A stretch of DNA of 37,846 nt from Vulcanimicrobiota bacterium (GTDB lineage: Bacteria > Vulcanimicrobiota > Vulcanimicrobiia > Vulcanimicrobiales > Vulcanimicrobiaceae): positions 1 to 37,846 of the forward strand of contig JAQBPK010000278.1 of NCBI GenBank assembly GCA_028287565.1, written 5' to 3'. The position numbers were made by a program, and so were the translations under genes. The notes beneath the pieces are model-generated. The model made no database searches. It worked only from the letters and a program-made list of their open reading frames with translations, and was not told where the DNA came from. Positions 8,980 to 18,282 of this stretch are shown here, piece by piece (the stretch's first letter is position 1; each line of letters opens with the position of its first letter).

Positions 8980-8980
<1 letters not shown>
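8528..8980 (-). CDS. ureE: Urease nickel metallochaperone UreE
   Basis: 150 residues from the tandem ATGs at 8980/8977, immediately at the ureC stop (TGATG). UreE is a homodimeric nickel carrier feeding UreG. Visible hallmarks are the N-terminal peptide-binding domain with KRVLRLETSAGDVGVRF and LRNGDVLY, the C-terminal ferredoxin-like domain with LGNRHLPVQIDGDEIVVRYDP, and a short His-rich tail (HAHAPHGHD) that probably binds extra nickel. The conserved metal-site His is in LGNRHLP. Confidence 0.94.
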
Positions 8981-10685
<1,705 letters not shown>

Positions 10686-10689
<4 letters not shown>

Positions 10690-10973
10690 ACGCGCACGCG
10701 CGGCGGGACGCGCTCGCCGCCCATCGCGACGAGCCCCACCGGCCGTTCGATGCCGGGCTCGAAGCGCACCGCCGTGCCGGCCGGAATGTCCAGGCACATC
10801 CCGTCCGCCGCGCCGCGGTCGAAGACCAGCGCCGGGTTGACGTCGCGGAAGTGCGCGTGCGAGCCGACCTGGATCGGCCGGTCGCCGCGGTTCGCGACCA
10901 CCACCGTCGTGCGGGCGCGGCCCGCTCGCAGCGCGATCCGGCCGGGCGCTGTGACGACCTCGCCGGGGATCAC
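10686..10973 (-). CDS. ureB: Urease beta subunit
   Basis: 95 residues from GTG 10973. The family pattern is complete: [18 protein letters not shown], then [49 protein letters not shown] and a C-terminal GGERVPP. It forms the (UreABC)3 trimer with the other structural subunits. It overlaps both ureA and ureC by four bases (GTGA at both junctions), a compact arrangement suggesting strict translational coupling. It is slightly shorter than typical UreB proteins (about 100-106). Confidence 0.95.
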
Positions 10974-13014: not shown

Positions 13015-15378
13015 ATGAGAGCTAAGCTCGGGTTGGCGGCCATCATAGGTCTCGCGACCCTCTCCACCCTTGTCGCATGCGGCGGCAAATCGTCTTCTCT
13101 GCCGGCGTTTCAGCCCGCATCGCACGCGGCGGCCGACGGCGCCGCGCGCACGAAAGCCTCGTATCAAGCGTACTCCGCGGCCGTGCTCGCGGACGCACCG
13201 CTCGTGTACTACCGCACGAACGAGACGTCGGGCACGACCGCGGCGGACAGCTCGGGACACAGTTACAGCGGAACGTACGGTTCGAGCGTGACGCTCGGCG
13301 GCACGGCGCTGGTCACCGGCGACGCCGCGCCGACGTTCCCCGGCGGAACGTCGTCCTCGGCGAAAGTGCTGAAATCGCCGACGAGCTCCGCGCTCGCCGT
13401 CACCGGCGCGATGAGCGTCGAGTTCTGGGTCAACGTGCCGTCGTCGGTCACGACGACGAAGATCCTGTTTACGCAACCGTTCTCGAACGGTGCGTCCTAC
13501 TATCCGGTGTACGTCTCGCTCGACAACGGCTCGCCCGCGTACTTCACGGTGCAGCTCAACACGACCAACGGTGTGGTGGCGACGTATCCGACCGCCGTGC
13601 TCGGCGCGAAGAACCACGTCGTCCTCACGTGGACCGGTTCGACGCTCACCGCGTACGTGAACGGCACGTCGGCGGGCACGGCGACCGGCAGCGGTTCGCT
13701 CACCAACTACGCGAGCCCGTACACGGGCTTCACCGTCGGCGGACCGGTCGACGCGCACGCGGCCTTCGCCGGCCAGGTCGGCGAGTTCGCGCTCTACAAC
13801 ACCGCGCTGTCGTCGACGCGCGTCTCCGCGCACTACAACGCGGCGGTCAACGCCGATCCGTCGCCGCCGCCGTCGTCATACGCGGGGATCGTCCTGGCGG
13901 ACAATCCGCTGGCCTACTACCGCACGAACGAGAGCTCCGGCACCACCGCGACCGACGCGTCGGGCCACGGCTACAACGGCACGTACGGTTCGAGCGTCAC
14001 GCTCGGCGGCACCGGCTTCGTCCCCGGTGACACGGCGCCGTCGTTCCCGGGCGGGACGTCGTCCTCGGCGAAAGTGCTGAAATCGCCGGCGAGCTCCGCG
14101 CTGGCGCTCACCGGCTCGATGAGCGTCGAGTTCTGGGTGAACGTGCCGTCGTCGGTGACGTCGACGCAGATCTTGTTCACGCAGCCGTTCTCCAACGGCA
14201 ACTCGTACTATCCAGTGTACGTCTCGCTCGACAACGGATCGCCGGCGTACTTCACGGTGCAGCTCAACACCACCGGCGGCGTGGTCGCGACGTATCCCAC
14301 CGCCGTGCTCGGCGCGAAGAACCACGTCGTGCTCACGTGGAACGGTTCGACGCTGACGGCGTACGTGAACGGCGTGTCGTCGAGCACCGCGACCGGCAGC
14401 GGCTCGCTGACCAACTTCGCGAGCCCGTACACGGGCTTCACGGTCGGCGGACCGGTCGACGCGCACACCGGCTTCACCGGCGCGCTCGGCGAGTTCGCGA
14501 TCTACAACAGCGTGCTGCCGGCGGCGCGCGTGCTCGCGCACTACAACGCGGGTTCGGGATCGTCGAGCTCCGGCGGGACCCTCGTGTGGCAGACCGGCGG
14601 CGGCACGCTCGGGCAATACGATCTCCCGAGCACGAGCGACGGACAATGCTCGGGCGTCGGGCCCGTGATCAACGGCAACAACGCGACGTTCACGTCGCTG
14701 CGGAACACCAGCACGACGTACAGCTACAACGGGCACACGTATTCGGGCGCGAGCACCTGTTACCGCAATCAGATGAACCCGCGTGACCCGAGCACGGGAA
14801 CGAACTCGCTGCTCGTCCCGGGAAACCACTACACGTTCACGTTCCAGACGGTCGTGACGTTCAACGGCAACACGCTCTACCAGGGCGCGTCGAGCGGCGG
14901 GCTCGCCGCCGACATTCCCGCGATCGTGTGGCAGACGCACAGCTATGGCGGCAGCGGCTCGCCGTGCGACTTGCTGGTGATCGGAAACACGTTCGTGGCG
15001 TACTCCAACGGCGTCACGAAGTACGGCACGGTGTCGCAGGGCGGCCTGCCGACGTGGAACTTCCACACCTGCGACGAGAGCGACTACAGCGGCAACGCCT
15101 ACAACTCGCCGGACACGCTGTACGACGGCGAGGTCGACAACTGGCAGATCGACATCACGGCCCAGATCCAGGGCCAGAGCGGCGGCTACATCGTCGTGCA
15201 GCGCAACGGCAGCGTGGTCTACAACGCCGCGAGCCACATCTGCGACAACAGCACGTCGGACTGCTTCTGGAACTTCGGCGCGTACACGTTCTACTACGAG
15301 ACCACCGAAGAACCGCCGGGGTGGAACAACGCGGGGATCACCGTGCAGTTCAACAACATGAAGCTCGTGAAGACGTAG
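13015..15378 (+). CDS. Lipoprotein with two LamG-like domains and a polysaccharide-lyase-like domain
   Basis: 787 residues from ATG 13015; upstream in-frame codons are not part of the gene because the lipoprotein signal (hydrophobic stretch ending LVAC, Cys22) starts here. Two concanavalin-like LamG/pentraxin-type domains follow (about 50-275 and 288-512), nearly identical to each other. The last 265 residues resemble the jelly-roll polysaccharide lyase family (PF14099 type), with GNHYTFTFQTVV, ADIPAIVWQTH, DNWQIDITAQIQ and GYIVVQRNGSVVY strands. It should sit at the cell envelope facing outwards and bind or cleave a polysaccharide. The C-terminal module recurs in the protein at 16246. Lyase activity is inference. 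Confidence 0.75.
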   Translation: MRAKLGLAAIIGLATLSTLVACGGKSSSLPAFQPASHAAADGAARTKASYQAYSAAVLADAPLVYYRTNETSGTTAADSSGHSYSGTYGSSVTLGGTALVTGDAAPTFPGGTSSSAKVLKSPTSSALAVTGAMSVEFWVNVPSSVTTTKILFTQPFSNGASYYPVYVSLDNGSPAYFTVQLNTTNGVVATYPTAVLGAKNHVVLTWTGSTLTAYVNGTSAGTATGSGSLTNYASPYTGFTVGGPVDAHAAFAGQVGEFALYNTALSSTRVSAHYNAAVNADPSPPPSSYAGIVLADNPLAYYRTNESSGTTATDASGHGYNGTYGSSVTLGGTGFVPGDTAPSFPGGTSSSAKVLKSPASSALALTGSMSVEFWVNVPSSVTSTQILFTQPFSNGNSYYPVYVSLDNGSPAYFTVQLNTTGGVVATYPTAVLGAKNHVVLTWNGSTLTAYVNGVSSSTATGSGSLTNFASPYTGFTVGGPVDAHTGFTGALGEFAIYNSVLPAARVLAHYNAGSGSSSSGGTLVWQTGGGTLGQYDLPSTSDGQCSGVGPVINGNNATFTSLRNTSTTYSYNGHTYSGASTCYRNQMNPRDPSTGTNSLLVPGNHYTFTFQTVVTFNGNTLYQGASSGGLAADIPAIVWQTHSYGGSGSPCDLLVIGNTFVAYSNGVTKYGTVSQGGLPTWNFHTCDESDYSGNAYNSPDTLYDGEVDNWQIDITAQIQGQSGGYIVVQRNGSVVYNAASHICDNSTSDCFWNFGAYTFYYETTEEPPGWNNAGITVQFNNMKLVKT
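13180..14551 (+). repeat. Intragenic tandem duplication, 708-base period
   Basis: Two adjacent copies of the LamG-like domain, offset by exactly 708 bases (236 codons; for example TATCC at 13501 and 14209). By eye most positions agree at the DNA level, including third codon positions, so the duplication is recent or kept uniform by gene conversion. Confidence 0.8.
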
Positions 15379-15500: not shown

Positions 15501-15542
15501 TGGTACACTGCCCGTACGGCGGCTGGGGTGCCGCCGGAGGAG
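15501..15542 (+). promoter_or_regulatory. Extended -10 promoter, 5' hairpin and Shine-Dalgarno (copy 1)
   Basis: TGGTACACT (15501-15509) is an extended -10 element (TGn-TACACT). A transcript would start near 15516. GGCGGC (15518-15523) then pairs with GCCGCC (15530-15535) around TGGGGT, so the hairpin would form the very 5' end of the mRNA. It abuts the Shine-Dalgarno GGAGGAG (15536-15542), five bases before ATG 15548. The same architecture recurs before two further genes. Confidence 0.65.
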
Positions 15543-15547
15543 TCCGT

Positions 15548-16057
15548 ATGAAGAGATTTACTTCAATCGCTTTGATCGCGCTGCTTGCCGGTTGCTCCGG
15601 CGGTGCGTCGAGCGTTCAACCGGGTCAGATCACCACGAGCACCAACCCGACGGCCGCCGTGCGCGTGCCGAAAACACAAGGGGGTCCGGGTACGACTTCC
15701 CTGACGTATCTCGACACGTACGCGCCGGTGGGTCAATGCCATCCGGGCGTGCTGAGCATCAATAACAGCACGTTCCCGGCGACGAACCTGTCGTTCCCGG
15801 CGGGACAAGGTCCGCCGCTCGTTCTTTCCAACTGCCACTTCACCACACCGCACTACGTGCGCGTCACGCTCGGCACGCCGGACTACGGCACGCCGTTCGT
15901 GCGGCAGACGGATTACACGGTCACCGTCGATGCGGCCGACTCGGCCAAGGTGACCGCCACCTGGACCGACTTGGGACCGACGCTGCCCGGCACGCCGGGT
16001 CTGAGCGGGACGGTCAACTTCACGATTGGGCCTCCGGACAACAGCTGCTGCCTTTAG
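15548..16057 (+). CDS. Small lipoprotein, single unknown two-Cys module
   Basis: 169 residues from ATG 15548. The signal MKRFTSIALIALLAGC is a clear lipoprotein signal (Cys16). The mature protein is one module of about 120 residues beginning at GGPGTTSLTYLDTYAPVGQC and containing a second conserved Cys in LVLSNCHF, then TPHYVRVTLGTPDYGTPFVRQ, TYTVTVDA-type strands and GPTLPGTPGL; it ends in CCL. The fold looks all-beta. No known family is recognised. The same module appears alone in the protein at 17779 and fused to a lyase-like domain at 16246. Its promoter region is nearly identical to that of 17779. Confidence 0.75.
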   Translation: MKRFTSIALIALLAGCSGGASSVQPGQITTSTNPTAAVRVPKTQGGPGTTSLTYLDTYAPVGQCHPGVLSINNSTFPATNLSFPAGQGPPLVLSNCHFTTPHYVRVTLGTPDYGTPFVRQTDYTVTVDAADSAKVTATWTDLGPTLPGTPGLSGTVNFTIGPPDNSCCL

Positions 16058-16075
16058 GCCTTTCACCAACGGCCA

Positions 16076-16123
16076 GCACGTGAGAACAGCGCGCGTAGCG
16101 ATACGCGCGCTGCTTTCACGTGC
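16076..16123 (+). terminator. Long hairpin after the first small lipoprotein
   Basis: An outer stem GCACGTGA (16076-16083) with TCACGTGC (16116-16123) encloses a perfect inner stem AGCGCGCGTA (16088-16097) with TACGCGCGCT (16102-16111), capped by a GCGA tetraloop of the GNRA type. A similar AGC-GCGCGT core stem follows the paralogue at 17779. Likely transcript end; no strong uridine tail. Confidence 0.55.
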
Positions 16124-16195
16124 CGCAACCGTAGTGCGATAACGCTCCTTTGCCGTATGGTGGTGCGCCGGCGGTATCGCTCACGCCCGCCGGGA

Positions 16196-16239
16196 TGATA
16201 CACTCACTTCGTGGCGGCTTTTACAGCCGCTAGAAGGGG
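16196..16239 (+). promoter_or_regulatory. Extended -10 promoter, 5' hairpin and Shine-Dalgarno (copy 2, diverged)
   Basis: TGATACACT (16196-16204) is the extended -10. GCGGCT (16214-16219) pairs with AGCCGC (16225-16230) around TTTAC. AGAAGGGG (16232-16239) is the ribosome-binding stretch before GTG 16246. Primary sequence has changed from copies 1 and 3 but stem pairing is kept, with a shifted register. Confidence 0.55.
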
Positions 16240-16245
16240 TGTTCA

Positions 16246-17637
16246 GTGAAAACGATCGCATCAATTGCGCTCGTCGTTTTGCTTGCCGGTTGTTCCGGCG
16301 GCGGATTGACCGCGCCACCGAAGAGTGGCGCCGACCCGACAGCCCAGCAGCGCGCGCCGCGCTATCTCGGCGGCCCGGGCACGACGTCGCTCACGTACCA
16401 GGACACGTACGCGCCCGTCGGCCAATGCTCGCCCGGCGTGCTTTCCCTCAATAACGGCTATGCGCCGGCGTCGAGCCTGTCGTTTCCGGCCGGGCAAGGC
16501 CCGCCGCTCGTTGTCTCCAACTGCAATTTCTCGACGCCGCAGTACGTCCGGGTAACGCTCGGCACGCCGGCGTACGGCACGCCGTTCATTCGGCAAAGCG
16601 CCTACACCGTGACCGTTGACGCGCCGGCCGCGGCGCAGGTGACGGCGACGTGGACCGCGCTCGGTCCCACGCTCCCGGGCACGCCCGGGCTCTCCGGTAC
16701 GGTGACGTACAACATCGGCCCTTCGGCGACCGGCCCGGTGGTCTGGAAGACCAACGGTTTTCCATACGACCTCCCCGGTGAGAGCGACGGTCAGTGTTCC
16801 TACGACACGACAAAGCCGACGTACGTCGTTCCGCAAAAAAGCGGCAACGACGTGACGTTCCCGCTGAAGCGAGACACGACGGCGATGTACGTGTATCCCT
16901 CGCCGCCGGCCAAGCCCGGGTCGAGCCACTGCTATCGCAATCAGCTGAATCCCGTCGACCCGAATACCGGAACGAACTATCTCCTCGCCATCGGCTCGCA
17001 GTACACGTTCACGTTCCAAACGGTGGTCACGTTCAATGGGAACTACCTGTTCGGTACGCAAGTGCCGAGTGGCGGCCTGGCTGCGGATATTCCCGCGATC
17101 GTATGGCAGACGCACACGTACAACGAGGTCGCGCCGCCGCCCGACAAGGGTGGGCCCTGCGATCTGCTGGTGATCCAGAACACCCGCCGCGCGTCGAATT
17201 CCGGCTTCACGCAATACGACCCCGTCTCGGGCGGAGGTTTGCCGACCTGGAACTTCCACACGTGTGACGACGTCGATGCCATGAAAGGCGCCGACTTCGC
17301 GGCCACCTCGTACAACTCGCCGGATACGCTGCACGACGGCGAAGTCGACAACTGGCAGATCGACATCACCGCGCAGATTCAGGGGCAGAGCGGCGGCTCC
17401 GTCGTCGTTCAGCGGAACGGCGCCGTGGTCTACAGCGGCGCCAACCACGTCTGCGACGACACCTCGCCGAAGTGCTTCTGGAACTTCGGGCCGTACGCGT
17501 TCTATTGGCCCAACAGCGAAGAGCCGACCGGGTGGAACAACGCCGGAATCACGGTCAAGTTCAACGACATGACGCTCGTGAAGAAGACGCCCGGCGGCGG
17601 CGGCGAGCTGTCGAAGCGGCGCTCCACCGGCGTCTGA
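16246..17637 (+). CDS. Lipoprotein: unknown two-Cys module fused to polysaccharide-lyase-like domain
   Basis: 463 residues from GTG 16246. Signal MKTIASIALVVLLAGC gives a lipidated Cys16. Residues about 40-160 are the same two-Cys module as the proteins at 15548 and 17779 (GGPGTTSLTYQDTYAPVGQC). Residues about 165-445 match the C-terminal domain of the LamG lipoprotein at 13015: SHCYRNQLNP, YTFTFQTVVTFNG, AADIPAIVWQTH, CDLLVI, LPTWNFHTCD, DNWQIDITAQIQGQSGG, CFWNFG. That part resembles jelly-roll polysaccharide lyases; several Cys suggest disulfides suited to an exported location. It is thus a natural fusion of modules found separately next door, likely an envelope glycan-binding or -cleaving protein. 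Activity unproven. Confidence 0.72.
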   Translation: MKTIASIALVVLLAGCSGGGLTAPPKSGADPTAQQRAPRYLGGPGTTSLTYQDTYAPVGQCSPGVLSLNNGYAPASSLSFPAGQGPPLVVSNCNFSTPQYVRVTLGTPAYGTPFIRQSAYTVTVDAPAAAQVTATWTALGPTLPGTPGLSGTVTYNIGPSATGPVVWKTNGFPYDLPGESDGQCSYDTTKPTYVVPQKSGNDVTFPLKRDTTAMYVYPSPPAKPGSSHCYRNQLNPVDPNTGTNYLLAIGSQYTFTFQTVVTFNGNYLFGTQVPSGGLAADIPAIVWQTHTYNEVAPPPDKGGPCDLLVIQNTRRASNSGFTQYDPVSGGGLPTWNFHTCDDVDAMKGADFAATSYNSPDTLHDGEVDNWQIDITAQIQGQSGGSVVVQRNGAVVYSGANHVCDDTSPKCFWNFGPYAFYWPNSEEPTGWNNAGITVKFNDMTLVKKTPGGGGELSKRRSTGV

Positions 17638-17642
17638 GGACC

Positions 17643-17675
17643 GACGCGGCACGCGTCCGGTGTTTACGGCACCGG
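17643..17675 (+). terminator. Possible hairpins after the fusion lipoprotein
   Basis: GACGCG (17643-17648) pairs with CGCGTC (17652-17657); a second pairing CCGGT (17657-17661) with ACCGG (17671-17675) overlaps it by one base. Short stems without a uridine run; weak evidence. Confidence 0.3.
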
Positions 17676-17734
17676 CGCGCTGCCGTTCACGGGTGGTCCT
17701 AGGCCGAGATGGTCATTCGGTCGCGCGGTCGGTA

Positions 17735-17774
17735 TGGTACACTGCCCGTACGGCGGCGGTTGCCGCCGGAGGAG
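17735..17774 (+). promoter_or_regulatory. Extended -10 promoter, 5' hairpin and Shine-Dalgarno (copy 3)
   Basis: TGGTACACT (17735-17743), then GGCGGC (17752-17757) pairing with GCCGCC (17762-17767) around a 4-base loop, then GGAGGAG (17768-17774) before ATG 17779. From GGTATGG through the left stem arm it is identical to copy 1 over 27 bases, while the loop differs in sequence and length. Confidence 0.65.
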
Positions 17775-17778
17775 TCAT

Positions 17779-18282
17779 ATGAAGACGATTACGTCAGTCG
17801 CTCTGATTGCGTTGCTTGCCGGTTGCTCCGGCGGTGCGTCGAGCGTTCCATCATCGAACTCGGTCACGACCACGTCGGCGGCTGTGCGCGCGCCGCAAAC
17901 CACCGGCGGGCCCGGAACGACGTCCATCACGTATCTGGACACGTACGCGCCGGTCGGCCAATGCGTCCCGGGCAAGCTCAGCATCAATAACGGCTTTGCG
18001 CCGGCTACGCATCTGTCATTTCCGGCCGGCGAAGGTCCGCCGCTGGTCCTCTCAAACTGCCACTTCACCACGCCGCACTACGTCCGCGTGACGCTCGGTG
18101 AGCCCGAGTACGGTACGCCGTTCGTGCGGCAGACGGACTACACGGTGACCGTCGACGCGCCGGGTCCGGCGCAAGTCACGGCGACGTGGACCGATCTCGG
18201 CCCGACGCTGCCCGGCACACCGGGTCTCAAGGGAAAGGTGACGTTCACGATCGGCCCGCCGTCTAGCGGCGGCGGCTTGTAG
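17779..18282 (+). CDS. Small lipoprotein, single unknown two-Cys module (paralogue)
   Basis: 167 residues from ATG 17779; upstream in-frame codons overlap the 5' hairpin and are excluded. Signal MKTITSVALIALLAGC, lipidated Cys16. The mature module (GGPGTTSITYLDTYAPVGQC, LVLSNCHFTTPHYVRVTLG, GTPFVRQTDYTVTVDA, GPTLPGTPGL) is a close relative of the protein at 15548 and of the N-terminal half of 16246. It ends in a Gly-rich tail rather than CCL. No known family or function. Two nearly equal single-module copies flanking a fusion gene suggest local duplication. Confidence 0.75.
   Translation: MKTITSVALIALLAGCSGGASSVPSSNSVTTTSAAVRAPQTTGGPGTTSITYLDTYAPVGQCVPGKLSINNGFAPATHLSFPAGEGPPLVLSNCHFTTPHYVRVTLGEPEYGTPFVRQTDYTVTVDAPGPAQVTATWTDLGPTLPGTPGLKGKVTFTIGPPSSGGGL

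Follow-up and report, generated by a model that had tools for sequence, protein, structure and literature searches.

A recurrent putative promoter and hairpin leader before paralogous lipoprotein genes in a Vulcanimicrobiota genome

Why do three neighbouring lipoprotein genes in a Vulcanimicrobiota bacterium start behind short leaders of the same layout? The genes lie in a stretch of 37,846 nucleotides (nt; contig JAQBPK010000278.1 of GenBank assembly GCA_028287565.1, positions 1 to 37,846 of the forward strand), here called the window, which is contig C252 of a 4.82-Mb metagenome-assembled genome (MAG) listed as 84% complete. Their starts at 15548, 16246 and 17779 (proteins P0001, P0002 and P0003) belong to tandem paralogs with 70–80% identity over the N-terminal domain. 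Before each start the order is the same: an extended −10 promoter element (TGn-TACACT), exactly 7 bases, a GC-rich hairpin of 7–8 bp, a Shine–Dalgarno (SD) sequence and the start codon. An original prediction had noted this order, which can be read directly from the DNA, together with loops of 6, 5 and 4 bases, which we confirm; where it put 8–14 bases between hexamer and stem, every copy has 7 nt. It proposed selection on RNA structure, with the hairpin acting as an mRNA-stabilising stem, a thermosensor or a protein-binding site that controls exported glycan proteins together. We favour, tentatively and as somewhat short of probable, a family-specific promoter and leader cassette with a 5′-terminal mRNA-stabilising stem.

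All three leaders lie on the plus strand. In copy 1, the extended −10 (15501–15509, TGGTACACT) precedes a hairpin at 15517–15536 whose arms CGGCGGC and GCCGCCG (15517–15523 and 15530–15536) form 7 bp around the 6-base loop, and the first G of the SD GGAGGAG (15536–15542) is also the last stem base. Copy 2 has TGATACACT at 16196–16204, a hairpin at 16212–16232 with 8 bp and a loop of 5 (TGGCGGCT/AGCCGCTA, 16212–16219/16225–16232) and the SD GAAGGGG at 16233–16239. Copy 3 repeats TGGTACACT at 17735–17743 and carries a hairpin at 17751–17768 (arms 17751–17757/17762–17768, 7 bp, loop of 4), followed by GGAGGAG at 17768–17774, again sharing its first G with the stem. Placed by the usual distance from a −10 element, the transcription starts (+1) are predicted at 15516, 16211 and 17750, which would leave about one unpaired base ahead of the stem and about 29–35 nt between +1 and the start codon. 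A consensus promoter scan found no −35/−10 pair at the three leaders, and no terminator-like site (a stem followed by a U run) lies there. The only match above the Rfam gathering score in the window is at 10250–10543, so none falls on the leaders; none was found in L023 or L024 either.

In the cassette that we favour, the extended −10 would start transcription one base or so before a short, strong stem, so that the mRNA begins with a hairpin, and ribosomes would load beside it at the SD that follows directly. The hairpin would then keep pyrophosphohydrolase and 5′-end-dependent RNases (RNase J, RNase E/G) away from the 5′ end, and the outcome would be long-lived, perhaps highly expressed messages for surface lipoproteins. 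Candidate opponents are encoded in the genus: of its 11 genomes, 9, among them this MAG, match TIGR00649 (RNase J family) above cut-off, and 10 have RNase E/G. Stabilisation of mRNA by a 5′ hairpin has precedents. A 5′ hairpin appended to bla mRNA stabilises it and impedes RppH, and B. subtilis RppH requires at least two unpaired 5′ bases, according to passages of PMC3997798, while passages of PMC11805744 describe how aprE stability drops from >25 to about 5 min once its 5′ stem-loop is removed, and assign a role to the aprE SD as well.

Does the arrangement recur beyond the window? The protein family is rare, given that a P0003 search of 99 family-level genomes reached 3 genomes. Profile A1, run over 103 order genomes, matched the same 3 strongly and also gave four partial, weak hits; two of these came from two additional genomes. 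Two scans of genome contigs for more relatives returned none and then one, the G088 record. The resulting leader set has six members (the three window copies, the dispersed paralog C174 and the congeners G091 and G088), the leaders of the weak partial matches being set aside. C174 has CGCATGGTACACTG and a long, interrupted stem from the 9th base after the hexamer to AAAGGG; in G091, with TGCTATACT, the stem CGAGCAGC/GCTGTTCG runs from the 7th base after the hexamer to GGAAAGG; G088 has ATGATACACTGCGCGCACGGCGGC, which resembles copies 1 and 3. The window copies, C174 and G091 thus all carry TGnTAYACT and a stem that closes from the 7th–9th base after the hexamer up to the SD. Counted from the predicted, not mapped, 5′ end, the foot of the stem lies at +1 to +3 in five of the six leaders. 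As a side observation, the upstream part of C174 is also present at the end of contig C266; the two contig ends, both from this genome (G000), probably represent one genomic place, since each holds the start of the fourth paralog.

Likeness among paralogs may be no more than descent, and one alternative is plain inheritance, with the leaders alike through gene duplication and the hairpin a GC-rich accident or weakly selected. The genes of copies 1 and 3 are paralogs with 78–80% identity. Their leaders are identical in 42 of 47 columns (naive binomial P of 1.5e-6), compared with 55 of 96 fourfold sites (57% overall) and 24 of 56 columns further upstream, and their differences fall within the loop and the spacer between SD and start. 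The run of identical noncoding bases, counted as 27 in the original prediction, is 28 nt. A longer run of 36 nt, synonymous sites included, is shared between 15582–15617 and 17813–17848 in the part coding for the lipobox and signal peptide; because this run lies in the coding region, a gene conversion tract could have added to the identity of copies 1 and 3, as the inheritance account would have it. Selection on RNA pairing is supported, by a small set: the likeness of copies 1 and 3 owes something to ancestry or conversion, and the structural claim rests on copy 2, C174 and G091, diverged leaders in which the stem is kept with two-sided changes. These three have diverged in sequence and their stem still closes between the same two landmarks, which speaks against inheritance as the whole account. 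In copy 2 it is the pairing that has been kept, not the sequence.

The pairing can be followed through an alignment of the five shorter leaders, hand-padded and with the register set to the stems; G088 was left out. Pairing stands in 33 of 35 cells, the two broken ones being outer positions of C174, and four of the seven pairs show changes on both sides while three are invariant. The covariation score is 0.571, compared with 0.231 in shuffles, of which 1 in 500 reaches as high, and it is at most 0.286 once the partner is slid. A loop-proximal core, CRGC/GCYG, is present in all five, and insertions and deletions are confined to the loops and the SD-to-start spacer. Compensatory changes among relatives, on which the original prediction had staked its structural claim, do therefore appear in this small, hand-registered set.

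Could such stems arise by chance in GC-rich DNA? In each leader we shuffled the bases between hexamer and SD 20,000 times with dinucleotides kept, and counted the shuffles that close an equally or more stable fold over the stretch from the predicted 5′ end up to the SD. The resulting P values are 0.0095 (copy 1), 0.0006 (copy 2), 0.0046 (copy 3), 0.0071 (C174) and 0.0034 (G091), and mononucleotide shuffles of the five give 0.0012–0.0141. Fisher's method gives a combined P of 3.1e-7 over copies 1 and 2, C174 (c4) and G091, treated as independent, which they are not fully. In a loose scan of 360 kb, eight short leaders had TGnTAnnnT; all four family members passed, and so did two of the other four, L049 weakly (−4.1) and L047 at −15.0. 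The promoter motif on its own is not enriched, with 21 TGnTACACT sites compared with 33 for the reversed control.

Several results weigh against the stabilising stem, and some of them favour inheritance. Among 115 coding-like genes with an SD (19 sources, 360 kb, window included, the C174 gene lying outside the sample), a contiguous hairpin at the SD reaches −10 kcal/mol or lower in 10; three are the window copies, which leaves 7 of 112 non-family genes, and 4 of the 112 have one at least as stable as the weakest window copy. An SD-adjoining hairpin is uncommon yet not rare in this GC-rich genome, and it is recurrence inside one family that carries the case. That recurrence is itself uneven: no contiguous hairpin adjoining the SD was found in C174, whose stem is interrupted with its outer two positions unpaired, and hexamer and start codon are 216 nt apart in G088, whose leader shows no clear terminal stem and perhaps grew long through an insertion. 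The copy 2 leader matches copies 1 and 3 in 26 of 53 and 27 of 50 columns, no better than the fourfold sites do (47 of 85 and 53 of 90). The covariation result leans towards structure because the register was set to the stems, and of its five measures two do not stand out; the count of doubly changed pairs is matched by 31 of 500 shuffles and the count of pair types by 52 of 500. Nor is the SD fully free, since in folds from +1 it is predicted to be unpaired with a mean probability of 0.39–0.69 in the five leaders (30 bases of gene included), and in the minimum free energy fold of copy 1 its GGA pairs with UCC. On the side of the nucleases, 9 of 14 control genomes likewise match TIGR00649 above cut-off, and no RNase E/G turned up in this MAG, which is 84% complete. 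Taken with the diverged leaders whose stems still close, we consider plain inheritance unlikely, while giving it real weight.

If the leader were a shared control element, other genes might be expected to carry it, as the original prediction supposed for a wider set of exported proteins. Apart from the three window sites and two places for the C174 paralog, the TGnTACACT list holds 16 sites, none of which, judged by eye, has a hairpin, SD and start. The strict pattern TACACT-N18-48-GGAGG occurs at 2 places in the whole genome, copies 1 and 3, compared with 7 for the reversed control. A covariance model built from copies 1 and 3 scores its own hits at 82–89 bits, and the next best in 11 genomes reaches 27 bits; that stretch lacks a promoter, an SD and a start, is found again in two other genomes and is probably coding. 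With E values up to 5, the model gave 72 hits in the 11 genomes. Two are copies 1 and 3 and one, at 15.5 bits, is the G088 leader; of the remaining 69 we viewed 28 by eye, and none of these combines −10, stem, SD and start. The strict and copy-1/3-based searches also miss copy 2, C174 and G091 in a genome that is 84% complete, so they inform on close copies only.

We found 38 TATACT-N18-46-GGAGG places in 11 genomes; 30 were folded, 15 of them had an open frame after the SD, and none of these 15 had a terminal stem of −10 kcal/mol or lower ending at the SD. Strong 5′ hairpins do occur in this set, in L121 and L115. The genome has 11 lipobox-pattern places, of which 2 belong to the family. In the other nine genes (starts chosen by hand, SD not found by the script in four) the best hairpin is never preceded by an extended −10; L097 has a weak stem at the SD. 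The original prediction's joint control of exported genes is thus not borne out by any further copy within the reach of these searches, and the leader looks like a family trait rather than a regulon. Two of the lipobox-pattern genes, L091 near 1025 and L098 near 1461, have hairpins of −17.3 and −15.5 kcal/mol located 22 and 49 nt before the SD. Separately, L120, L103, L110 and L125 (from G089, G090, G087 and G095) hold, near 1500, what looks like the rpsB leader, with an S2 motif recognised in L120 only. They have TATACT in common, a hairpin with GTTGCCCCG close to the predicted start, and, at and around the SD, sequence resembling CACTTCACCCGCCCGGAGGGCGGG; there is no Rfam match. This is possibly an S2 autogenous leader.

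The same searches bear on whether the paralogs have their translation switched by a dedicated RNA-binding protein, or by a small RNA, docking on the stem, as in autogenous control. The CRGC/GCYG core shared by all five shorter leaders and the place of the stem beside the SD would suit such an operator, but the enclosed stretch ranges from 4 to 29 bases with variable sequence, and no other gene was seen with the stem in the strict and copy-1/3 model searches; nor was a candidate regulator identified, no search having been aimed at one. We regard a docking site as rather improbable. A bolder version, in which promoter, CRGC/GCYG stem and SD form a compact cassette read by a lineage-specific RNA-binding protein that jointly tunes how much of each surface lipoprotein paralog is made, and which would be a leader kind new for Eremiobacterota, is a long shot.

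Does the hairpin instead hide the SD until a signal opens it? An RNA thermosensor, or another leader of this type, would be consistent with a hairpin adjoining the SD and with the partial pairing of the SD described above. If transcription enters copy 2 from a point 60 or 120 nt upstream (window 16150–16250), the predicted unpaired probability of the SD is 0.0, compared with 0.69 from +1, but among the read-through transcripts the SD is clearly closed in copy 2 only. The SD also lies 3′ of the terminal stem, bar one G in copies 1 and 3, and the stems, mostly GC-rich, amount to about −12 to −16 kcal/mol (leader folds computed at 37 °C). Alternatively, a dimeric repressor could bind the inverted repeat as a DNA operator overlapping +1, a role to which a site just 3′ of the promoter would be suited; against this, the half-sites are spaced 4, 5, 6 and 11 bases apart, which would break helical phase, and they change in sequence while their complementarity stays. 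An SD beyond the stem, variable loops and variable half-site spacing thus disfavour both the classical thermosensor and the operator; we give the operator very little credence and the thermosensor, one of the options in the original prediction, marginally less. A different hairpin was seen upstream of the L042 gene at 13559–14777 on the minus strand, where an AT-rich 10-bp stem (CTGATATATT..GATATATCGG) adjoins GGAGG and, unlike the family stems, might melt with temperature.

A final alternative is that the leader is coding, with translation from the ATG within ATGnTACACT adding an N-terminal extension. Copies 1 and 3, like G091, keep this frame open, but insertions and deletions shift it, and beyond MVHCPYGG copy 1 no longer encodes the peptide of copy 3. 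Copy 2 runs into TAG and C174, read by hand, into TGA, and an SD-like GAGG before that ATG was seen, by eye, in copy 1 only. This reading is barely credible.

The three genes themselves, all on the plus strand, offer few clues to function. P0001 (169 aa) is encoded at 15548–16057 from an ATG and has a recognisable LLAGC lipobox; P0002 (463 aa) at 16246–17637 from a GTG; and P0003 (167 aa) at 17779–18282 from an ATG. None of them has a Pfam or NCBIfam match above cut-off, and a P0002 profile found no match among PDB sequences, so the label 'glycan proteins' in the original prediction is unsupported for them. The structure model of P0002 is poor (predicted local distance difference test (pLDDT) score of 44); that of P0003 is beta-rich (pLDDT 69), and a fold search with it gave no significant match (best E 0.05). 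The neighbour P0004 has two LamG stretches, which are lectin-like domains, and no TGnTACACT was found upstream of it. P0002 has an extra C-terminal domain in common with P0004 (window 14599–15375 and about 16770–17600, 65% identity), which appears to be an unnamed exported domain. Elsewhere in the window, the Rfam match mentioned above is to 5_ureB_sRNA (57.7 bits, 10250–10543, plus strand) and lies antisense to a minus-strand urease alpha gene at 8980–10797; it is probably coding similarity and possibly an antisense RNA.

The locus provides a sequence-based case, in Eremiobacterota, of a predicted 5′-terminal stem that adjoins the SD and is kept through two-sided changes. It could help to ask which 5′-end-dependent pathway such stems oppose, given that RNase J-like and RNase E/G genes both occur in the genus, and we expect its impact on the field to be modest. 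In the open-access library searched, no paper mentions Eremiobacterota alongside 'transcription start site' or 'stem-loop'. As in extended −10 promoters (TGnTATAAT), TGn stands before the −10 and no −35/−10 pair was found, but the hexamer here is TACACT. RNA thermometers such as ROSE and fourU also have a leader hairpin near the SD, whereas here the SD is not inside the hairpin. The E. coli ompA and papA mRNAs reportedly carry 5′ stem-loops (Arnold 1998; Bricker 1999), and those of ompA are said to include two protective elements. Like the stem predicted here, these lie near the 5′ end of the mRNA of an exported protein; the ompA elements sit in a longer leader, whereas the window copies have one stem and about 29–35 nt from predicted +1 to start. 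Also close is the B. subtilis aprE 5′ stem-loop (Hambraeus et al. 2000, 2002; described in PMC11805744 and listed in PMC3997798). Compared with aprE, the predicted stem here directly adjoins the SD and belongs to a paralogous lipoprotein family. Stems of this kind are already known, and the present case is, as far as searched, new in its lineage.

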